Origin: Tilletia caries
Lineage: Eukaryota > Basidiomycota > Exobasidiomycetes > Tilletiales > Tilletiaceae
Direction of reading: 5' to 3'
Assembly (NCBI GenBank): GCA_032718865.1
Contig: JALUTQ010000040.1
Coordinates: 310,001-374,000 of the forward strand
Length of the DNA: 64,000 bases
In this document: positions 1,261 through 60,277 of the stretch, piece by piece
How positions within the stretch are numbered: the stretch's first letter is position 1
Layout: every line of letters starts with the position of its first letter
Position numbers and translations under genes: made by a program
The notes under the pieces: generated by a model
What the model was told of the DNA's origin: nothing
Seen by the model: only the letters and a program-made list of their open reading frames with translations
Databases searched by the model: none

Positions 1261-1929
1261 TAGGGCTCGGCTGCCTCGGCACGACTATGAGATTTTACGA
1301 CTTTTACGACTATAGCCTCATACGACTATGACTATGACTATGCTCCAGAGAATGTAAGACAATAGTCGCCATAGTCGTTAAAAATCTGGTCTAAAAATGA
1401 TTTTGCGACTATAGTCGGACAATAGCTGGATGTCAAGGCTATAGTCGCAGCAAACAATTCGGCTGTAGTCCGACTATAGTATGTTATGGTCTGACTATAG
1501 CTTGGAGTTGCGACTATAGCCGCAGGCCCGACCGCCACCGCTATAGTCAGACTATGACATCTATTGCCCATGAAACACTATAGCCAGTCATAGTGCGACT
1601 ATTATTGTTGGATAGTCGAACCATAGCCTGACTATATCCGATTTTAGACAATTAAAAGCGACCTACACTATAATTATTTATAGTTTGAAATTGGACTGAT
1701 GGGAAAATTGTTGTCCCAAGTCCGACTATAGTGGCGCACAGGCGTTACAATTTTGGCTATAGTCACACTATAGTGCAAAATTTGGCTGCGCAAAATCCAG
1801 CGACTATAGTCGACTAAGGCACTATAGTCAGACTTACGACTATGACTATTTTGGATTTTCGACAAACGCTTACGACTACGACTATGGCTATGCCAAAAAA
1901 CGTGCGACTATAGTCGGAGCCGAGCCCTG
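1261..1929. mobile_element. hAT-type MITE, ACTATAGTC-word family (669 bp)
   Basis: The ends are inverted repeats: TAGGGCTCGGCT on the left and the complement of CAGGGCTCGGCT on the right. The flanks are TCGGCAAC and TTGGCAAC, an 8-bp target duplication with one mismatch, as expected for hAT transposition. The interior has no convincing coding frame. It is filled with the palindromic word CGACTATAGTCG and fragments of it (GACTATAG, CTATAGTC), repeated dozens of times in both orientations. It is non-autonomous. The mismatch in the duplication and one terminal base difference suggest it is older than the other MITEs here. Confidence 0.75.
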
Positions 1930-2147
1930 TTGGCAACAGGATGAAAGTTATATATTATGTATGTACTATAGTATGGATGTAATATAGTATAGTAGCTCAA
2001 TAATGTACTTTCGCGTCTTTCGATCCGTGAAATAAGCCGAACATACTATACTCGACTTCAAGTGTACTATAGTATACTGCAGTGCACTTCTAGCCTCCTC
2101 TTTTCAGCATAGTTCAGCATACTACTATCCTCAAGGATGTCAAAAGA
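1930..2147. other. AT-rich spacer without a gene
   Basis: Short stretch with many TATAGTA words (for example ATAGTATGGATG). I see no coding frame. Confidence 0.4.
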
Positions 2148-2228
2148 CTACTATACTATACTATACTATACTATACTATACTATACTATACTATACTATA
2201 CTATACTATACTATACTATACTATACTA
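2148..2228. repeat. Pentanucleotide microsatellite (ACTAT)n
   Basis: About 16 uninterrupted CTATA/ACTAT units immediately precede the start of the kinase-like gene region. Length is likely variable between strains. Confidence 0.95.
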
Positions 2229-2269
2229 TGCTTCTAGTGCACAGTATTTATTGGCTCTTCGTGAGTGTG

Positions 2270-4877
2270 CCGTTACATCGACGCGAAGATCGTCCTGAAT
2301 GCCTGGCTGAATCGAGACGTATCTTCTCTCTCTTTCCTGCTTCCCCAACACGCAGCCATCGGCCTCGCTGAAGCGGCAGCGCAGCGAGACACCCCGTCGC
2401 GACGCGCCGCTACCCGTCATTTGTGCAGACGTGGAGACCGGGCCGGACGCCCATCGAAATCTCCTGCGCCATGGCCGATCGCGCGGCTGGCCTTCAAACC
2501 CCGAGACGGACGCTACCTGCGCGTCTTCGACCTCGACCGCGCTCACACTGATATGGTGTTGTCCGATCTCAAGGCTGAACTGCAAGAACGTCCCGACTTT
2601 CCGTTTTCCGACTCGTGCGGAACTGGGTACTGGGTTCTACGGTCCCTTTCACGGTCTCGTGGTCGCGCAATCAATCAAGACCGAGTTACGACGGGCGGTA
2701 CCTTCTGCCAGCCCACTCAGTTTGGCCCGCGCTGCGGCCAACATCGTCCCGTTGATTCTCACCCTCTTAGTCAAACAAGACGGCCGGTTGTCCATGCGTG
2801 AGGCGCAGGTCGTGCTGATCTCGTCCGGACTTTACGGCGATACGATGTTTTTGGCGGCGCTGTGGGAAGGATTCCTTCCATTGCGGTTATCGGCATCTCC
2901 CAGGCGCGCGGGCCCCAACTCCCCACCGACCGGAGCCAGTGGAGCCGGCAGCGATCAACCGGAACCGGCCGTCGCACCAGCACCACACCCTGCCGACGCG
3001 CCAGGATCAGTCCCTGTCCCTGTCGCTCCAGGCCCTCAACTCGGCAAATTGGCTGCTGCTCCAGGCTCTCAACTCGAGGAAGTGGTACCAGTCCCTGTCC
3101 ACTGTCCCTGCAGACGCGTCAGCACCGGTCCCTGTCCCTGCCGCTCCGCGCTTTCACTCGACAAAGTGGCTGCCGCTCCAGGCCCTGCCGACGCACCAGT
3201 CCTTTTCCGTACCGCCGCTCCGAGATTAATCCTTGATTTTAACACGCCGAGTAGAATGGCGGCGTACTGGTCGGTACCCCGTCGTCACTGGGGCCCGTAT
3301 TGCCGGCGAGGGCGGGTTTGCCCAGGTGCACCAGTGTTCGGATCTTCTCATTCCGTGGAGGACGGTGGCCAAGAAGCGGCAATTCATCGATCCCAACGTA
3401 TCCGACCTTCCGCCGTACCTGAAGCGCGAGATTCAAGCGCTGCAACGATGTCAAGGGCATCCGAGTTTCGTCGAGATCATCGACATCATCTTCGAGCGGG
3501 CGAAAGGTCGCCCTTACCTCGACATCATAATGCTTCTCGCACGCACAAATTTGGCGAACCTTGTGCACAAGACACCGGGCGGACTCGGTCAGTTCCCGGC
3601 CAAAACATACTTTCATCAGATTCTGAACGGCGTCGGATGGATGCATTCGCGGCAATGGGTCCATCTGGATCTTAAGCCTGCAAACATCCTCATTTACAAC
3701 GACCATACCATCAACTATCAACAAGGCTCGGCCAGTTATTATACGTTGTCCATTTTTGGTCCGCAGTTAAGTTTAGTTGCAGTTGGAACCCGGCGCCGGC
3801 GCTTGCAGTTTAGTTTAGTCACAGTTTAGCCACTTACTATCATTACAGTTAACTTAATTTTGCGCCTGTCACTATACGTTACTTACAGTTATTTATAGTA
3901 ACTTAATCGCGTCTCAGTCACCCAATTCACGCAGTATCTACCTCAAGATGTCTGGTACTATTCTAGTTTGCCTTTAGGCACGTACTTTGCCGCCTCTGAG
4001 CCCGCTCGTACATGTTTCCTCTCTTGACTACCTCCAAAGACCCATGCTTTTTAGTTATTTTTAGTTACTTGTTACAGTTATTATTAGTAACTGTGGGCAC
4101 AGTTGTTAATAGTTAATTGTTCCAGTTAATGTTAGTTACCGGATACAGTTATTAGTTGACTACTATAGTTGTGATTAGTTACTGTGCGCACTGTCAGTAA
4201 CTTTAAGTAACTGTAAGTGACTATAAGGAGCTATAAGTTCGCACGGTAAGTAGCTGTGAGTAGTTGTAAGTTGGGTCAAATCGTCGGCTTGCGAACGGCA
4301 ACTTTTAGTGACTATAAGTTACCGTGTCCGGGCCCATACAGTTTAAGTTGACTTAATTTTTCCGGAGGCTCCGCCGCCCGCAGTTTAGTCACAGTTTAAC
4401 TAGATTAAGTTAACTTACCCGCAGTTGCAGTTAGGTAAGTTGGTAAGTTGCCGAGCCTTGACTATCAAGATCACCGCCCTCAATCTGGCGCGCAAGAGCA
4501 CCTGGCAAAGGCTCGCACAGCCTGTTGGCACTCTGGGCTATCGGCCCCCGGAGGAGTTCTTCAACCATCCCCGGGCCGAGCCCTCTATGGATGTTTGGCC
4601 GCTCGGCACGATCTACGTTGAGATGAGGAACGCCCGGTACTTGTTCGACACCAGCGACACTATGATCTGCTTCCAACAGATGCTCAGTCTGGTCGGTTCC
4701 GCCCTCACAACCGTGTTCCAGCAACCCGAACCTGATGCGCACATTCGAGGGATGACCCATTTCCCAACACGCCCGCCCAACTACGGGCGTCTTGGACACC
4801 TGTCGATCGAAGAGCAGCAGATATTATGGTTGGAGCACACGCCACACTGGGACTCTTCAATAATGGAACTCACATGA
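2270..4877 (+). pseudogene. Degenerate protein-kinase-like gene with proline-rich linker, split by a MITE
   Basis: The C-terminal part resembles a protein kinase. There is a glycine-rich loop (GARIAGEGGFAQV), a VAKK lysine motif, and HLDLKPANIL at the catalytic loop (coded near 3660-3690), then after the MITE KITALNLAR and VGTLGYRPPE in the activation segment (4463-4550). The usual HRD has Leu for Arg, and the DFG motif reads ALN, so the metal-binding Asp is missing: a pseudokinase at best. Upstream, 2980-3230 codes a repetitive Pro/Ala/Val-rich linker (PVPVAPGPQLGKLAAAPG-like units), with apparent frame changes between 2270 and 3230. A 739-bp MITE sits at 3722-4460. Even after removing it and one target copy the two halves are out of frame by 7 bases. 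I cannot assign a biological role. Confidence 0.6.
3722..4460. mobile_element. hAT-type MITE, AGTTA-word family, copy 1 (739 bp)
   Basis: Terminal inverted repeats CAAGGCTCGGC are flanked by a perfect 8-bp duplication ACTATCAA (3714-3721 and 4461-4468). The inside is saturated with AGTTA, TAAGTTAACT, ACAGTTA and related words and has no coding frame. A nearly identical copy lies in inverted orientation at 13498-14235. It interrupts the kinase-like gene just after the catalytic loop. Confidence 0.9.
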
Positions 4878-40487: not shown

Positions 40488-40947
40488 GAGAAAATCCACA
40501 GGATGGTACAGCTGAACGGCTAAATGAATCCCCAGGATGGCACACCTCAAATCAAAATCCACAGGATGGTACGGCACGTGATGCCATTGGGAGTCTTGGC
40601 GAAGTTTTTGCCTTGCGACCTTGGAAACGTCCGGCACGTCCAGCACCCAGAATAACGACAGGAATGCGTTCAACATCGTCGGAGGCAGCGGCAGCGGCAG
40701 CTGACTGAGCTTGCCAGAGAATCAGATTGGACCTCAGACGCTCTACGTGTATGTTCTTGCAGGGCAGAGATGCTTTGCTCAAGTTGAAGGCAGGGCTTTG
40801 AGACCATGAGAAGACTCCTGAAAACATAGAGAAATGACCTGGTGACCACCTAAACCAATCACGTGCCGTACTATCCTGTGGATTTTTGAGATGACATACC
40901 ATCCTGGGGATTTGACCCTCCAGCTGTACCATCCTGTGGATTTTCTC
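40488..40947. mobile_element. MULE-type MITE, GAGAAAATCC family, copy 1 (460 bp)
   Basis: Each inverted end has three iterated blocks: CCACAGGATGGTAC, CCCCAGGATGG, then CCACAGGATGGTACGGCACG. The left flank is CCCTCACGC (40479-40487) and the right flank TTTCGACCCG (40948-40957); they do not match each other but do match, inverted, the flanks of copy 2. The interior is non-coding in practice. It has the same length as, and near identity to, 59818-60277. Confidence 0.9.
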
Positions 40948-50400: not shown

Positions 50401-53400
50401 GTCGTCGGAGTTTTGGGGCGCCCTGATCTGCTGCGATGATGGTGGTGGGGGCGGAGGCGGACCCATAAGGGTGGTACGGCTGGATGAAGGCGAAAAGGCT
50501 GTTGTTATTTTCGGAGTCTTGAGCACCGTGCCTTTCAGAGAAGGGGTCTTCTTTCCGACTTTGCTTTGTGCAGAGGCGCTCGAACTCGCACGACCGGCAA
50601 AGGTCGCTTTGTTGGGAGCTGATTTGCGTAGCTGTGTGGTAGAGGGAGTGGCTCGACGCTCGTCGTCCGAGTCTTCGGAGTCTTCGGAGTCAACATGGAG
50701 GCTTGGGTCGTAGGGTCGAGGTCGCGGCCGAGTCACCTGAGCCTGACTGGACGACGGTTGCTGCTGGCCGGCCTCATTTTCGACCACAAAGCCAGCGAGG
50801 CCGACTGGTTGCCGGCGATCCGTGTCTGGTCGCGTCGAATAGCGATGGGCAGGCGCAGGAGTTTCCCCAGGAGGTTAACCACAGGATGGTACGGAGATTT
50901 TTGAAAAACCACAGGATGGTACGCCCCTTATCTTACCATGGGAGGGTACGGAGATACCATTCGCCGACCTCATTTCGAGGAGAAGATTGAAAGTGCTTTC
51001 TGGGAAGAAAAGTCTCAGGATACAGCACCCTCTAATCGCAACCGATCGCATCGCAGAAAGGCCTGTTTTGCTCTCCTAAGCCTCACACGCCTACCATTGG
51101 ATTTTCAGGTCAGTTATTCAGGAGCCGCGAGAGCTTCGGCGGTCTGAGGCGGGCCAAAAATTGGAAATTTTCGACCCAGAAATACCTTTGATCTGTGCTT
51201 AATGAGATGAGGTCGGCCATACAAGGTCCTCATACCCTCCCATGGTAAGATAGTGAGCGTACCATCCTGTGGTTTTTCGAGAATTTGTGCACCATCCTGT
51301 GGTTAACCTCGTTTCCCCAGGCTGTGCTGAACGGTATATACGCGGTATACTCGTTCTCTTTCTTTCTCGGTTCCTTTCTCGGTTCCCTTTCTTTTCTTCT
51401 CTCTTCCTCTTCCGCACAACGCCTCACAATCGTTGCGCAACGTTGCCACTTTTCCCTCCCTTTTCTTCACGCACCTTTTTTTCCGTACTTGCAGCTCGGC
51501 TATAAAAGGCGCGATCTCATTTGTACTTAGAGGAAATTGATTCAGCCTTCACACACATTACAACACAAGAACAAGAAACACTAATCCAGATACAACCAGA
51601 GCACAGGTACATAGTCTGTCCATTACATGGTGATGAGAGTGGGATTCGAACCCACGCCCTTTCGGACTACGGCCTCAACGTAGCGCCTTAACCGCTCGGC
51701 CATCTCACCCTCGCGAAATCTCAAGATGATTCCACCAATGATTCAAATACCTCGCTTGACAGTCCGCGGTTGTTCATTGCGGACAAGTCTGTCTTCCACA
51801 CCGCGCGTCGTCTGAACCCAAACGACGAGAACCCCCCGCTGTCCCAGCCGACGAGAGCGTTCGGTAACATCGTTCCCTTGCCCGTCAACCCCGCTTCTGG
51901 GTCTGGTCGCGGCTATCGGTCCCATGTTCCCCTCACGGTACAGGTCCGACTCAACGACACCGACGGCCGCGCGCTCTCTTCCCTCCTCGACACGGGCGCG
52001 TCCCTGTCAGTGATCGATGCGGGTCTGCTCAGACGACTGGGCGGCGTCCCTTCGGGAGCACCCATGAGAATACACGGACTCGGAAACGTGATGACGCTCG
52101 GATGGGTCACCATTCCTGTTTTCCTCCACGCTCAAGATCCTTACGGCGCGGCCACCCACATCTCCTTCTCCCAGGACTTTCACGTCCTGCCGTCGTTCGC
52201 GCCTGGCCTTTGCCTGGGCCGCGATTTCATCGACGCTCAGGACCTTTCGGTCTCCCCGGTTCGCGGTCGAGGCCGGATCGGTCGTTACACCTTCCAGGTC
52301 AACGAGCGTCTCCCGGGGCCATACGGTCAGGAGCCGGAGCTCGTCACGACGTCCGATGTCGATCTCTTTGCGGGCGAGCAGCGCTGGGTTCCGGTCGGTG
52401 CTCATTGCTTGGCCCCGGACATCGATTACGCCGTGATTCCTCGCCTGTCGACCGCACCGGATGAGTCGGTGCGTCTGTTTGGTCCCGCTGGCTTGCTGCG
52501 CCACGCTCCCGTCGGTCACGTTCTGCTGGGGAACTACGGCTCTTGCACGTTCCACCTTCGGAAGGGAACGATCGTCGCGGATGCTTATGCGGCCCGCGTT
52601 GGGGATGTTACGGCGGACGCTGGCGAGCTATTCGCCCTGACGCCCGCACGGTCGTCCGCCGCCACGGCCGGCTCTTCCTCTCCGGAGTTTCTCCCGTCCG
52701 ACGTTGAGCTCGCCTTGCCGTTGGACGCTTTCGAGCTGGCAGATGCTACCGGGTCCAGTCTCACTGCGGACGCCGCCGTCTCCCTGGTCGATGACCAGTT
52801 CCGCGTCGGCATCGACACATCGGGTGCTCCGCATCCCGACATCGTGGCTCTGCTCCGTCGGCACGCTGAGGCTTTTGCGTTGGATGGTCGTCCGGGTCGC
52901 GTTGACGACCACGACATGGAGATCAACCTGCTGCCCGCGGCCACTCTTCGCTCCGACGCTCCCCGCCGGGCCAGTCCAGAGAAGCGCGCCGCTATGGACA
53001 CGACCATCGATCAACTTCTGTCCTGGGACGTGATCGAACCGTCTTCCAGCCCGGTTTCTTTTCCTGTCGTGATGGTTCGGCAGAATGGGAAATGGCGTTT
53101 TTGCGTCGATTATCGGACGCTCAACACCAGCACTATCCCCGATCGATATCCCCTGCCTACTATCGACTCGATCTTTCAGACGCTCGCGGGCAAGAAGGTG
53201 TTCAGCTCTCTGGATGCGATCCGAGGCTATCATCAGCTCGGCGTCAAGGAATCGGATCGCTGGAAAACGGCATTCATATGCCATCGGGGTCTATTTCAGT
53301 ACAAGCGTGTGCCGTTTGGACTTCGGAATGCGCCGGCGGTTTTCCAGCGCCTTATGGACCAGGTTCTTGGGCCTCTACGGTGGAGCCAGGCGGTCATATA

Positions 53401-56232
53401 CATCGATGACGCCGTCGTTGCAACGGATTCGATGGAGGAACACCTGCGGGCGCTGGAGATCCTCCTCCGTTCGGCGACGAGCACTGGCTTGAAGTTCAGC
53501 CCCGCCAAGTGCACGTTCGCGGTTCCCTCTCTGGTCCTGTTGGGACGCAAGGTCTCCGGCGCGGGCGTGGCTGTTTGGGAGGAACGGGCGAAGGCAGTTG
53601 AGGACCTCCGCCGGCCGACGACCCTCCAGGAGCTTTACCACACCCTGGGACTGTTCGGCTACTATCGGTCCTTCATCCGCAAGTTTGCCGAGTTGGCGTC
53701 CCCCCTCACCAAGCTCTTGCGGGGGTGGCGATACGAATCGGCCGACGGCCACACTCGGTTGGTGAACACCGAGGGGAAGGCGGTCACGGCGAGCAAGGTC
53801 CCTCTTCAATGGGAAGCCGAGCAACAACACGCCTTCGACACACTTCGCCAGGCTGTCGCCAACCCACCCATCTTGGCCCATCCCAACTCCTCCCGACCAT
53901 ACGTGCTGTATGTCGACGCGAGCAAGCATGCTTTGGCCGCGATCGTGCATCAAGTCCATGACTCCGAGGTGCCCGCTTCTTCGCCTGCTCAGTTGAATCA
54001 TCTGGGTCTCTCTCAGTTGCCGACGACGGTCGCCCGGGAGCGTTGGCATGCGTGGCTTGCCGAGGATCGTTTCTTCGGCCCGATTCTGTCCCGACTTCAG
54101 GACTCTGCTCCTGATCCTGATTGGGCGATGTCCGGGGGGATCTTGGTTCGACGATTGGACGATCGCGTTGCGCTGCCGTTGGCCGCGGTGCCCACCATCC
54201 TGCGAGCCTTGCACGACGACCAAGGTCATTTTGGATTCATGAAGACCTTCCTGTCGGTCACGCGCCAGTTCTGGCGACCTGGACTGTCCACGGTCGTCCG
54301 ATCCTGGGTAAAGCACTGCGGAACTTGCCAAGCGACCAAACAGGCTCCGAAGACCGGTTCATTGAGCATCCAGAACGATCCATCCCTGCCGTTTGAGTCC
54401 GTGTCGTTCGATCTGGTCTACGGATTCCCTCGATCCCAGGCCGGCAACGACACCGCCTTGGTGATCCAGGACCAGTTCTCCCGCATGGTTCTCCTTCATC
54501 CATGTGCCAAGGACATCTCGGCGGAAGGCGTTGCGGCGGTGTTCAGCGATCGCGTCTTGAGGTACGGCTGGCGCCCTCGTCGCATCGTCACCGACTCGGA
54601 GGCGCGCGTCAGTGGGGCCGTAATGACCGCCGTGGCGTCGTCCTTAGGTGCCGAAACTGCGCCCTCTAGCCCGTACCATCAGCAGGCCAACAGTGTTGAG
54701 CGCGCCGTCCAGACCATCCAACGCGTCTTGGCCTCTATGGCCCTGGACTCCCGTGCCCACTGGGACCGCCGTGTCCTGCCGTCTGTCGAGCTCGCCATGA
54801 ATAGCTCACCGGCTCTGACTACCGGGTACCGGCCATTCGACCTCATCTTCTTGTCGCACCCCGACGTCGTCCACGCGGTCTTTGACACTGGCGAGCACCT
54901 TGGAGTCGGCTCTTTCCCGGAACGTCTGGCGGCGGCCCGCGAACGACTTGAGGATGCTCGTAGGCACATCGCCGGTCCAGAAGCAGCGCTACGACGGGAA
55001 GCGCGCGCCGGTTCCGCCCTTGGCCATCGGGATGCGCGCTTGGATCCGCTTGGCCGATCGACCCGTCGCTGGCACCGGCCAGGACAAACTCGCCGCCAAG
55101 AAACTTGGGCCCTTCCTCGTTGAGGAGGTCCTCAGTCCGCACCGTGTTCGTCTTCGCCTGCCCGATCACCTGCAGATTGACCCCGTGCTGAACGTCGAGC
55201 AGCTGGATTTCGCGCCGACCGACGTCGATCCTTTCGCCGCTGAGCGTACACGATTGACGGATTCGGGTGGTGCTGCTCCGTCGTCGGTCTCGGGTCAGTC
55301 TCCTGACGCTGCGCTGCTGGATGATCCTCTTGTCCCCTCCGCCCCGGACGACGGGCTGGGCCTCGCTGTCGTTCCTCGCGTTCGACGGGCGCCACTCACT
55401 TTGCGGGAGTTCGACCTTGGGACGGTCTCGGCCGCAGCCCCTCCGCCGGTCGGGTCGGATGCGTTGGCCGATGCGTTGGCCGGGCCCATCGGGCGTCCTC
55501 GTCGCCTCGTGGTGGATGGGCGCGAGAGGGTGCTACAGGAGCGACCTGTGGCTTTCTTGTCCCGGCTAACCTCGCCGGCGGAAAGCAAGCTCGTCGCGTC
55601 GGAGCTCGAGCTGGTGTGTTTCACGTGGGCTTACCACAAGCTGGCGCACTTGTTCGAGGGGGTTTTGGTCACTGTCGTCACGGACCACGCCCCAATGGAG
55701 CACATGCTGGTCTCCTCCAACTCGATCCCGTATGGTCCGACCATTTCGCGCTGCCGGGCTGTGGTGATGCCACATCTCCCCAATCTGCGGTTCGTCTACC
55801 GTCCCGGGGCGCTGCACACCAACGCTGATGCTCTCTCGCGCCTGCCGCCAGCCTCTGGTTCTGAATCCTGACCAGGGACGGTCAGCTCTTCGCGGTGGGG
55901 ATGTGCTGAACGGTATATACGCGGTATACTCGTTCTCTTTCTTTCTCGGTTCCTTTCTCGGTTCCCTTTCTTTTCTTCTCTCTTCCTCTTCCGCACAACG
56001 CCTCACAATCGTTGCGCAACGTTGCCACTTTTCCCTCCCTTTTCTTCACGCACCTTTTTCCGTACTTGCAGCTCGGCTATAAAAGGCGCGATCTCATTTG
56101 TACTTAGAGGAAATTGATTCAGCCTTCACACACATTACAACACAAGAACAAGAAACACTAATCCAGATACAACCAGAGCACAGGTACATAGTCTATCCAT
56201 TACACAGGCTCGTCTGGAGAGTCAAGCACCAT
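47473..56232 (-). CDS. hAT transposase, four exons, split at codon 9 by two nested transposons
   Basis: Start ATG at 56232 (MVLDSPDE). Codon 9 is completed at 50870 after skipping the MITE and the Ty3 element. Exons: 56232-56208 plus 50870-50262, 50153-48321, 48232-47840, 47762-47473; introns have GT-AG ends. The sum is 3,150 bases, exactly 1,050 codons with the stop. Domains: disordered N-terminus; BED-type finger (CKCCQPPVDVIRPC...SSTSNLLTH); catalytic core with FHLAIDVWTSANGYAFLG (Asp), NIVSDNASENTTMM (Asp) and RCSAHVLNLI; a long acidic insert; then the C-terminal hAT dimerisation block DPLRWWWSEKQ ... ANLALDVFGCPATSVEVERL with FSRAGR. No stop lies in the exons. It recognises TAAGGATG-type ends. 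The two insertions should abolish expression of the N-terminus. Confidence 0.88.
50861..51320. mobile_element. MULE-type MITE, GAGGTTAACC family (440 bp) with 10-bp duplication
   Basis: The element proper is 50871-51310; its duplication GTTTCCCCAG is perfect at 50861-50870 and 51311-51320. The inverted ends start GAGGTTAACCACAGGATGG and carry a second CCACAGGATGGTAC about 35 bases in, then CTTACCATGGGAGGGTA. A 10-bp duplication and iterated ends indicate MULE-type mobilisation. Its interior differs from the 460-bp family. Confidence 0.93.
51323..51627 (+). repeat. 5' LTR (305 bp)
   Basis: Begins TGTGCTGAACGG and ends CATTACA. It has a pyrimidine-rich block and a TATA box, TATAAAAGG, at 51501-51509, with transcription expected to start some 30 bases on. 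Confidence 0.93.
51628..51709 (-). other. Primer-binding site that is a whole tRNA-Leu copy including CCA
   Basis: Read on the minus strand, the 82 bases directly after the LTR fold as a complete class II tRNA: acceptor GGTGAGA with TCTCATC (one G-U), D arm GCCGAGCGGTTAAGGC, anticodon stem CTACG/CGTAG with loop TTGAGGC (anticodon GAG, Leu), an 11-base variable arm, T arm GTGGG-TTCGAAT-CCCAC, discriminator A, then CCA. Ordinary primer sites match only the last 8-18 bases. Eukaryotic tRNA genes do not encode CCA, so this derives from a mature tRNA. Pol III A and B boxes (TGGCCGAGCGG, GGTTCGAATCC) are intact. Confidence 0.9.
51710..55871 (+). CDS. Ty3 Pol polyprotein with split RNase H, one frameshift, no ATG start
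   Basis: The frame is open from the tRNA copy on, with no ATG before the protease site LLDTGASLSVI. RT: PVVMVRQNGKWRFCVDYRTL ... LFQYKRVPFGLRNAPAVF and VIYIDDAVVA (YIDD). Then the first RNase H strand, LYVDASKHALAAIVHQ, breaks off and goes straight to the integrase zinc finger (DQGHFGF...KHCGTCQATK) and catalytic core (VSFDLVYGF, IVTDSEARV, NSVERAVQ). An extra G near 54974 shifts the frame; the continuation VQKQRYDGKRAPVPPLAIGM has the GPF module KLGPFLVEEVLSPHRVRLRL. The missing RNase H part follows at about 55500-55856: PVAFLSRLTSPAESKLVASE, VTVVTDHAPMEHML and NLRFVYRPGALHTNADALSR. The domain order is thus PR-RT-RHa-IN-RHb. Confidence 0.88.
55894..55901 (+). promoter_or_regulatory. Polypurine tract of the Ty3 element
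   Basis: GGTGGGGA directly precedes the 3' LTR, the position of the plus-strand primer. Confidence 0.7.
55902..56204 (+). repeat. 3' LTR (303 bp)
   Basis: Nearly identical to the 5' LTR, TG...CA ends, TATA box at 56078. Followed by the CAGGC target copy. Confidence 0.93.
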
Positions 56233-56983: not shown

Positions 56984-59817
56984 GTCCCGTTACCTCCGTC
57001 GCCGTCAAGTCTGAACCGGACTGCTCGGGCCGGGGCAACATTCCAACACTCCCTCCTGCACCGTACCGAGAAAGAAGACTTGATTCACCGCAGGTGGTGT
57101 CGGAGTTGCTGCGGAAGGGAAGTCGGTGTGACGTCGCGAGTGGCCAACCTCGGCCTGAACGACTGCCTTAGAGCATGCTTGAGAACCGATCCGTAGTGGG
57201 CGGATTGGTTGGCGCTGCGCCGACAAGCTGCAGAAGGACGTCGGTAGCGCCCTGAAACGACGGTCGGATGGCTGAGGAATGAGTGTCGCTCAGTGTGGAC
57301 CGTATGGTCTTGCATGGCGTGCAGCTCGACAACTTGTGAGGCCACCATGTCATACACCAGGCTGATAGCCGAGGAGGGCTCTCGGTGCTGCCGATCCAAC
57401 GCGCTGTGGTTGGCCATCGCGCTCATAGTGAGGAGCAAAGCGCTTACACGATCATCCCGCACCTGAATTGCCGTACGGTTCGAGAGAATGTATGGCTTGC
57501 CGGTCATGCGAGAAGGCGCGGTCGGAGAACTTGGTGGTGATCCAAATGATGTTGCGTTACGTCGTATCAGACCGGCGCTCGCAGCCGTTCCCCGCTCTGC
57601 CAAACGCTCGATGTGGGATGGAGGTGGACCGTCACCAAGACAAGCCGTCGACCTCGCTGCGGTGTTTGTCCGAGAGAACAGCTGGTGGTTTGCTGTTTGG
57701 TGCTCGATCGTGAATTGGGTTTGGCCAAAGGTGTGCTTCGTAGTAGGTCGAATATTTTGACCGATTCCACCCGCACCACACACCATCTCCACATCGTTCG
57801 CACACACCCTACTGTGAACATGCTCCTGCCACTCCGAGTCCACCCACATGTACCACACTGCTGGTGCGGTTTGGCCGTGCATGTCTGCGTGTTGCTCGGG
57901 ATACAACACAGCGGCCAATTCACCCATGCACCCTGGTGCACATGTTCCTCCGAACATCTGCATGTCGCATACGCTCGGCGCAGAGCTGATGCTCATGCCG
58001 CTAACTACGACTGCTGCTCCCAAGCGACTGGAACCGACGTTGTGGACGTAGCCGGTACTGGTGCTGATTATGGGGACCAACGTCGAGCTGCAGGAGTGTC
58101 GCGCCGTATTGGTTCTGGTGTTCGCAGGGATCACGATGTGCCCAACGTGAGATTCTTGGGAGTTCCGAAAAGCAGTGTCTTTCGCCGACAGAGAATTGAT
58201 CATCACCATCGCTACGCGAGGGGACTGTAGCAGCTGGATCCTCGTAGGCGCTGAGGTCGCCATTGACGCAGAGCGCTGTCGGTCTTGGGGTCGCTGCCAT
58301 CGGTCCCAGGGTCATGTTGCGTCCGGTTGATGAGCTGGTGGACGGTAATGACGATACTGCTTCGTGTCGGAATGCAGAGAAGGTGGCCGTTGTTCTTGCG
58401 CACGTTGTTGATCCCCGCGGCCCGCACACGCGCTATCCGGACCAGTCGCTTGCTATAAACGTATGATGTCACACGGAGTGTGGCAGTCCCGCTCGTATGC
58501 GCGGCCACGTCTGTGGTTCCGGCTCCCTCCTGCTGTACTCCCTCCTGTTGTACTCCCTCCTGCTGTACTCCCTCCTGCTGTGCTCCACCTTCCTGCTGTG
58601 CTCCCTCCTGCTGTGCTCCCTCCTGCCTCGTTCTCCACTGCGCCCCGTTCCCCTGACTCGCTGCTTCCAGAACTGCCTGAGCCGGTCGCCACTGCTGTAG
58701 CTGAGCTGGGCTGAAGGAAGCTCCGCAGCTGTTGACATCGCCGTGGCTGTGATCAGCGGCGTCGTGACGAAAGGCTTGTGAGAGGTTCGCTGCTGCCGAA
58801 AGGCTGAAGAGGGGCTCGCAGCTCTTGGTATCGCTGTAGTCGTGGCCGACAACGCCGGGGCAGGAACCATGTGCCACGCTAGTTGCTCCTGCAGCAGCTT
58901 CTTCAGCAAGTCGAGGTCGCCTTCGCGACTTCGCGGGCTGCACCTCGCGGGATTCGAGGCCGATGCCGGGGCAGGAAGCTTGAAGGGCGTAGTTTGCCGC
59001 TGCTAGTGGAGGTGCTGGAGCTGCTGGTGTTGCTGCAGCAGTCGATGCCGTAACTCGCGTTGCCGCGCCTCGTGAGTGACGCTGGAGCTGCGACTCCCTT
59101 GGCGCCGTCGACTGGGGATCGATGCTAGGAGAGTAAGGTACCCTTGTTGCGAGTAGTGGTGGTAGAGGTCGAGGCCACGTCTCCGATTGCGTCGTCGTTC
59201 GCATCGTCGAACCACAAGGCACAATCACCTCCGTAAGCGAACCCGACCGCTTCGTTTCCTTCACCACCGGCTTCACATCCTCATCCCCTCCAGTCATCAC
59301 TCCCCCCTTTACAGCTCCCTCCGTCATCGCTCCCTCCGTCATCACTCCCTCTTGCATCGCTCCGACCGCCATTACTCTCCCTACCACTGATCCACCTTCC
59401 ACGTCTCTCTCCGGCACAGGCTGCTCTCCGAGCGAGCTGCTGTCCGCCCGATCCACAGTGTCCAAAGTAGCATGTACCTTGACAGCTTGTGAATACCGTC
59501 CGATCTTGAGCAAGATGTGCGAGACTCCTGCATGCTGCTGCTGCATCCGCCACTGCACGTCTGCTCAGAGACCGTAAGCTTGAGCATTCCGAAGCCGGGA
59601 AGATCGGCAATCCTCGACTGCTCGATGTCGGTATAATGGAGCTTGGCGACAATTCGCCGTCCGAGCTCGTCAACCAAAACTCTCCCCCCTCGAGCCGTCG
59701 AGCGATCATTACCGTAAGGCCACGCCAAAGGATAGGAAGAGCCGTCGGGAGGACTCGTTGAGTGATTCCCTTCGTGTGACGGGGGACCCGGACCTGTTGG
59801 TTCTAGCGGCGTGAGGG
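56984..59817 (-). pseudogene. Main body of the unknown gene, inverted away from its 5' part
   Basis: Reading leftwards from the MITE at 59817 the frame continues the 39595-40487 piece: PLEPTGPGPPSHEGNHSTSP, then LAWPYGNDRSTARGGRVLVD and ELGRRIVAKLHYTDIEQSRI. Near 59540 the frame changes (intron not fixed) to QWRMQQQHAGVSHILLKIGR, followed by acidic, Ala/Ser-rich and repetitive sequence, including [10 protein letters not shown] repeats coded by 15-base units at 58525-58625. From 58263 to 57085 another long frame could be an exon or a shadow. The family is not recognised. Separation from its start by the inversion means the gene is broken. Confidence 0.45.
58525..58625. repeat. 15-base minisatellite (CTCCCTCCTGCTGTA)
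   Basis: Six to seven units CTCCCTCCTGCTGT(A/G) in tandem; on the minus strand they code QQEG(V/A) repeats. Confidence 0.85.
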
Positions 59818-60277
59818 GAGAAAATCCACAGGATGGTACAGCTGGAGGGTCAAATCCCCAGGATGGTATGTCATTTCAAAAATCCACAGGATGGTACGGC
59901 ACGTGATTGGTTTAGGTGGTCACCAGGTCATTTCTCTATGTTTTCAGGAGTCTTCTCATGGTCTCAAAGCCCTGCCTTCAACTTGAGCAAAGCATCTCTG
60001 CCCTGCAAGAACATACACGTAGAGCGTCTGAGGTCCAATCTGATTATCTGGCAAACTCAGTCAGCTGCCGCTGCCGCTGCCTCCGACGATGTTGAACGCA
60101 TTCCTGTCGTTATTCTGGGTGCTGGACGTGCCGGACGTTTCCAAGGTCGCAAGGCAAAAACTTCGCCAAGACTCCCAATGGCATCACGTGCCGTACCATC
60201 CTGTGGATTTTGATTTGAGGTGTGCCATCCTGGGGATTCATTTAGCCGTTCAGCTGCACCATCCTGTGGATTTTCTC
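59818..60277. mobile_element. MULE-type MITE, GAGAAAATCC family, copy 2 (460 bp, inverted)
   Basis: Inverted near-identical copy of 40488-40947. Left flank GCGTGAGGG (59809-59817), right flank CGGGTCGAAA (60278-60287). Each is the reverse complement of a flank of copy 1, showing exchange of flanks. Confidence 0.9.

Follow-up and report, generated by a model that had tools for sequence, protein, structure and literature searches.

Inheritance of the primer-binding site in Ty1 and Ty3 was reportedly described by Lauermann and Boeke in 1994 and 1997, aberrant integrations of Rous sarcoma virus are said to have been described by Oh et al. in 2006, and tRNA retropseudogenes arise from mature tRNA. 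According to the accessible part of one report, the primer-binding site of Ty1 and Ty3 of yeast is inherited and is not a copy of the tRNA (PMC7472051). In HIV, the available excerpts of another report state that plus-strand synthesis on unmodified tRNA reaches the 5′ end of the tRNA with a minor product stopping at position 37 (P1, P5; PMC13191261), and the shorter strong-stop products alone are said there to be active templates (PMC13191261). In the titles and abstracts of the open-licence literature searched, no LTR element containing an entire mature tRNA was reported.

An element of this kind is present in the genome of Tilletia caries (38.1 Mb, 40 contigs). The window, by which we mean the whole stretch of 64,000 nucleotides analysed (C35:310001–374000), contains a 4.9-kb element with two LTRs, a target duplication and a polypurine tract, as known for Ty3/gypsy elements, and a tRNA copy is placed exactly between its 5′ LTR and its pol frame, the first base after the 5′ LTR being the start of the tRNA copy. 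The features of the element are as follows.

51318–51322, no strand: left target-site duplication CAGGC; the identical five bases follow the 3′ LTR.
51323–51627, plus strand: 5′ LTR (TGTGCTG...ATTACA), a direct repeat of 55902–56204 with 98.7% identity.
51628–51709, minus strand: complete mature tRNA-Leu(IAG) copy with CCA, spliced and with G34 (ARAGORN, Rfam, comparison with genes L002–L004).
51628–51639, plus strand: the 12-nt stretch TGGTGATGAGAG, the primer-binding site normally retained in these families (140 genomic ATGGTGATGAGAGNG sites; 12–15 nt in sampled normal copies).
51674–51676, minus strand: anticodon GAG, which is AAG in the genes; the gene intron would fall 3′ of position 37, between 51673 and 51672 (gene comparison, spliced anticodon pattern).
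51707–51709, plus strand: the ACC join, a 3-nt identity of the tRNA-copy end and the acceptor in the sister element L086 (L086:4191–4193; sister comparison).
51710–55123, plus strand: 5′ part of pol with protease, RT, the first RNase H half and the zinc finger and core of integrase (ORF 51770–55123), without gag and leader (Pfam; comparison with L086 and protein P0001).
54882–55871, plus strand: 3′ part of pol in a different frame, with SH3_Tf2-1 and the second RNase H half; the pol frame is interrupted here (ORF list, Pfam, comparison with P0001).
55894–55901, plus strand: polypurine stretch GGTGGGGA adjoining the 3′ LTR; the same motif precedes other 3′ LTRs.
55902–56204, plus strand: 3′ LTR, direct repeat of the 5′ LTR.
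56205–56209, no strand: right target-site duplication CAGGC, matching the left copy.

The identity of the LTR pair was calculated over 308 aligned positions. The ORF at 51770–55123 has protease, RT, RNase H and integrase in the Ty3/gypsy order, where the Pfam matches for protease and integrase core are below the Pfam cut-off and only the first RNase H half lies before integrase. The gag gene expected of a Ty3/gypsy element was not found in the window element, and the sister L086 has an ORF at that place (1803–3878). As judged from these comparisons, the window element is classed as a deleted Ty3/gypsy copy and not as a separate family. Among the 120 protein matches to the window listed of 225, all were named Tilletia. 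The T. controversa protein P0002, which starts inside pol, showed 100% identity at 85% query coverage in the search table; when two pieces of the element were compared with it, the values were 99.9% and 100%. The T. laevis protein P0001 was considered as a carrier of the tRNA and rejected; although the alignment starts within the tRNA stretch, the protein has normal pre-pol sequence at its N-terminus. The window also contains a 460-nt inverted repeat (40488–40947 and 59818–60277; 99% complementary, 18.9 kb apart), a 78-nt inverted repeat (50871–50948 and 51233–51310; 88% complementary) that ends 12 nt before the 5′ LTR, and tandem 15-nt repeats resembling CCTCCTGCTGTACTC within a minus-strand ORF at 58511–58651.

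The original prediction was confirmed: a full 82-nt tRNA, CCA included, follows the 5′ LTR without a gap and reads on the minus strand. ARAGORN found a single tRNA in the 64-kb window, a tRNA-Leu with anticodon GAG at 51628–51709 on the minus strand, and Rfam RF00005 matched 51631–51709 (60 bits, cut-off 29, E 1.8e-10), the CCA being encoded at 51628–51630. The free RNA fold of the copy had −33.1 kcal/mol (z −2.29; 7 of 200 shuffles equally good) and recovered the acceptor, T and variable arms. Because the D/anticodon region was paired differently in this energy fold, the full cloverleaf is supported by ARAGORN and Rfam and not by the fold. The copy thus matches the tRNA model that defines a tRNA gene, and its body equals the exons of the cellular AAG genes except for position 34. 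A close T-run terminator was not found, the first run of four Ts lying ~120 nt past the CCA on the minus strand. With its whole body kept, the copy at 51628–51709 (minus) could be a new tRNA-Leu(GAG) locus.

The origin of the copy was investigated by searching the genome with its 82 nt. This gave 23 places, and all 23 candidates were scored; they comprised the window copy, 4 cellular tRNA-Leu genes and 18 LTR-adjacent shorter matches. Since the other 22 matches are all tRNA-Leu genes or LTR-adjacent sites, chance is excluded as the source of the similarity. Three of the cellular genes read AAG (L002, L003 and L004) and one reads CAG (L007). The search for a tRNA-Leu with identical body and an AAG anticodon, as had been suggested, thus yielded three genes, each having a body identical to the copy, A34, a 16-nt intron between positions 37 and 38, a downstream T-run and no encoded CCA. 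The CTTAA of their intron could pair with TTAAG around the anticodon. The CAG gene differs from the body of the copy in the D loop. As compared with L002–L004, the window copy shows three simultaneous changes, namely the loss of the intron, G in place of A34 and the addition of CCA, which are the marks of a retrocopy of a mature tRNA with its editing visible. As these three genes were the only ones found with the same body, the changes indicate that a mature tRNA was copied, and the sequence supports the copy being made from an AAG tRNA that had been spliced, given its CCA and converted from A34 to I34, the latter read as G.

A search of the whole genome agreed with this. The spliced anticodon pattern, with any base allowed at 34, occurred at three genomic sites (L032, L042 and L043) whose LTR tails are mutually unmatched, and G34 was present in 3/3. 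L028 is ambiguous at position 34 and was left out of this count, neither for nor against editing. When the pattern of the tRNA 5′ end was searched with up to 2 mismatches, five sites were obtained: the three AAG genes, the CAG gene and the window copy. By this pattern and the spliced anticodon pattern, a native tRNA-Leu(GAG) gene with this body, which would have spoken against the editing argument, was not found in the assembly. The proposal that GAG is a footprint of inosine editing at A34, left by copying of a mature tRNA, is therefore supported by the lost intron, the CCA and G34 in 3/3. Like tRNA retropseudogenes, the copy is a spliced tRNA with CCA that was turned into DNA; unlike them, the tRNA would have been the covalently attached primer and not a free template. 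Among the other contigs, C18 (113,789 bases) has dense, organellar-looking tRNA genes and is probably the mitochondrial contig.

The motif ATGGTGATGAGAGNG, which joins the last LTR base to the start of the tRNA copy, was present at 140 genomic sites and at 0 in the reversed control, and an exact 18-nt match was present at 20 of the 140 sites, again with 0 in the control. The normal sites match the tRNA for 12–15 nt in 11/11 sampled (picked from the first 100 of the 140 sites, outside the long set), with no further tRNA sequence. In this the sampled normal copies are like Ty1 and Ty3, as far as the accessible account of those elements goes, in keeping a short site; unlike them, a minority of the Tilletia copies, counted as 20 long events, have acquired more of the tRNA, at most the entire molecule. 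The 20 events are the 20 exact 18-nt sites plus the variant L017, with L037 and L038 merged as one duplicated unit. Their lengths are 18, 25, 29, 36 (four), 44, 45 (six, one with a mismatch), 46 (two, each with one change), 48 (with a mismatch), 54 (two) and 82 nt. The mismatch in L017 is at position 4 of the match; L024 has one inserted base and is exact up to 41; L028 has a mismatch at 28 and continues to 48 (48 or 49 nt); and L036 has a mismatch at 40 and continues to 46. The long copies occur across several LTR families and in many lengths, and they start at CCA where the LTR ends. On this comparison, normal copies are considered to keep the short site and the long copies to be a separate class.

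The end points of the long copies were not spread evenly. Nine of the 20 end at 44–46, just before G37 (position 46 is the partner of G37), and clustering as tight was obtained in 2 of 200,000 trials of a uniform-model simulation, which used a length of 33 for L030 that was later read as 29 from its sister L098, leaving the 44–46 cluster unaffected. Chance extension of the matches was ruled out by this clustering. A single copy stops at 18, beside A58, where an m1A58 stop would fall, and A58 was copied as A in 19/19 copies passing it. Because m1A is often misread during reverse transcription, the lack of such misreading suggests that the primer may lack m1A58 or that the enzyme may be unusual. 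We know of no modification that fits the ends at 36 (4/20) and 54 (2/20). Nine bases separate the end point at 36 from that at 45, and another nine separate 45 from 54. The accessible part of PMC13191261 places m1G37 in tRNAs reading C-initial codons except CAN, in Salmonella and by a mechanism called common to eukaryotes. The CUN leucine codons fall under this C-initial rule, so m1G37 is expected in this tRNA-Leu; for the Tilletia primer, both m1G37 and I34 are expectations from general rules. Over-extension in HIV-1, as described in the excerpts of PMC13191261, is like that of the Tilletia copies in that the primer tRNA is copied past 58, to 37 or to the 5′ end; it is documented there by in vitro work and modification mutants, whereas in Tilletia the long products are fixed in the genome, integrated after joining elsewhere. 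The Tilletia copies look like the read-through plus-strand strong-stop products known from HIV, preserved in a genome.

The junction partners of the long ends were identified for 10 of the 20 events and deduced for L027. For the other nine no partner was found. Among the best 40 of 280 candidates scored in the genome search for these partners, no second copy of the junction segments was found. The sister L086 has leader, gag and pol, and the window sequence after the tRNA joins it at 4191, at an ACC with which the tRNA copy also ends. The window element lacks L086 1922–4190, and the join lies 2.27 kb behind the L086 primer site; the T. laevis protein P0001 reads PAPTVYETLVKSQ across this point. 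The whole tRNA, which had been taken for the primer-binding site of the element, therefore proved to bridge a deletion of leader and gag, the sampled normal sites having 12–15 nt. In L042, the join after 54 nt of tRNA leads 3.95 kb deep into an element of the same LTR family that has two LTRs. L028 joins a leader close to the primer site, and L030 joins 44 nt into a leader at a shared CG. The body joined by L037 shares 99.8% identity with the L040 body, and the join falls 581 nt past the point where the tRNA copy of L040 itself begins. No bases are shared at the joins of L042, L040 and L037. The ends of L031 and L040 return to U5, which produces the order LTR, tRNA36, LTR tail and short site. 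The LTR family of L040 has six pairs at a spacing of ~6.56 kb whose 90-nt segments are 100% identical (C33, C32, C21, C15, C7 and C3) and is probably young. A composite on C5 (L009/L028 and L022/L027/L095; C5:446200–458009, minus strand) has tRNA copies of 48 and 36 nt that bridge two LTR families, in the order LTR_X, tRNA48, gag-pol body, LTR_W, tRNA36, 169 nt and LTR_X, the outer LTRs being 99.4% identical. The 169 nt are presumed to be the 3′ end of an X element because LTR_X with the polypurine motif follows.

Such joins could also be scars of end joining, in which a U5 cDNA end carrying the copied tRNA tail was ligated to other DNA by host repair. Five copies lie behind a 3′ LTR, as marked by the polypurine motif upstream (L026, L027, L033, L036 and L041), and two join inverted LTRs, that of L035 being 94% like the LTR_X tail and the other being L017. 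The 45-nt tRNA copy of L017 (C3:1898768–1898812) lies at the centre of an LTR palindrome of 98% over ~1.2 kb. Furthermore, HIV 2-LTR junctions with tRNA primer sequence have been published (available parts of PMC5618025 and PMC9198661), and the Tilletia copies are like these junctions in having primer sequence left at the U5 end; they differ in that the Tilletia case is a complete, edited and spliced tRNA in a two-LTR element with a target duplication. Against such ligation, the target duplication was present in four of the five copies tested (window, L034, L042 and L029), where 5-bp duplications flank elements with the tRNA copy behind the 5′ LTR; it was looked for in the C5 composite and none was seen. 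These duplications imply that the join preceded integration, which refutes end joining for the window copy. As a general account it is quite unlikely, and for the five 3′-LTR copies host repair is possible.

A selected, extended primer-binding site, inherited in its long form and pairing with a larger part of the tRNA, would agree with the recurrence of twenty events over several families and with L034, whose LTRs mark it as young (100% identity over 303 nt) and whose leader follows its sister's without a break over the ~80 nt compared. This sister, L110, has 13 nt followed by TTGATCGCG, whereas L034 has 45 nt followed by TTGATCGCG, an exact insertion at the edge of the primer site. Also against an inherited site, near-identical LTRs carry 12, 36 or 82 nt, and the lengths cluster at tRNA positions and not at one family length. 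Among the copies read, no sister group at different loci with related leaders had one long site in common, except for the duplicated unit L037/L038. The sisters of the window element that were seen have 12 nt (L078, L079 and L082) or 36 nt (L022/L027), none with the 82-nt site, and a family-wide 82-nt primer site is ruled out by them. The suggestion that other copies of the family might share the 82-nt site did not hold, and the window copy is a single event, yet it falls within a recurrent class. An inherited long site is, on these grounds, very unlikely. Capture of a true tRNA-Leu(GAG) gene or a genomic tRNA piece beside the LTR, by insertion or recombination, would explain a full-length copy that scores as tRNA, but it is highly improbable given the encoded CCA, the absent intron and the A34 to G change without any such gene in the assembly, and given that other copies of diverse length likewise begin at CCA right at the LTR end; insertion of genomic tRNA is ruled out by the CCA, the missing intron and position 34.

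The reading that we prefer, and regard as very probable, is that these elements are primed by mature tRNA-Leu(IAG) and that overshooting plus-strand strong-stop DNA was transferred elsewhere and integrated. In the window element, the polymerase making plus-strand strong-stop DNA would have run beyond both A58 and G37 until it reached the 5′ end of the primer; the full mature tRNA is there as the product, and plus-strand strong-stop synthesis is its presumed maker. The 3′ end of this long product would then fail to pair at the primer-binding site, and its terminal ACC would meet the identical triplet that the minus strand offers at the start of pol, where synthesis would resume with the loss of leader and gag. 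The join and its 3-nt identity are seen directly against L086, and strand transfer by reverse transcriptase would account for them. The finished linear DNA would have integrated with the 5-bp duplication that flanks the element. The overshoot would recur in several LTR families, stopping most often one base before G37, the expected m1G37. The tRNA tail would loop out at the primer site or transfer elsewhere, and the long ends would then join leader, body interior, U5, inverted LTRs or other elements.

The primer tRNA is removed by RNase H, and the RNase H-like domain of pol is split in the Tilletia elements scanned. In 3/3 full-length relatives scanned (P0001 of T. laevis, P0003 of T. indica and P0005 of T. 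walkeri), Pfam profile positions 1–52 or 1–53 of 100 follow RT, and the second half lies at the pol C-terminus, behind integrase and SH3. The window ORFs 51770–55123 and 54882–55871 have the same two halves (profile 1–52 and 54–99). Late primer removal by a split RNase H would keep the tRNA available as template for longer; a link between this split and the read-through is conceivable and rather doubtful.

A wider reading, which we put forward tentatively and at somewhat less than even chances, is that read-through is a standing side route in these elements. The tRNA tail would act as a sticky end that moves the LTR off the primer site and to other elements, yielding gag-less or chimeric elements such as the LTR_X-tRNA48-body-LTR_W-tRNA36-LTR_X composite on C5, and each join would document how one primer tRNA molecule was modified (with I34, with an A58 that did not block and with a G37 that did). 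HIV overshoot products are already known, and what none of the titles and abstracts searched reports is the genomic record, a complete, spliced, edited and CCA-tailed primer in an integrated element together with its siblings. The plus-strand stop base of the primer and the consequences of a failed stop are described, in the parts of the literature available, mainly from in vitro and mutant-cell work on HIV, and here one natural genome keeps ~20 stop failures with their end points, and the outcomes for half of them. The overshoot can be integrated, and it can remove gag or join elements, and the splicing and inosine editing of single tRNA molecules are preserved in DNA. Any genome with LTR elements can be searched likewise for LTR-adjacent tRNA copies of more than 18 nt.
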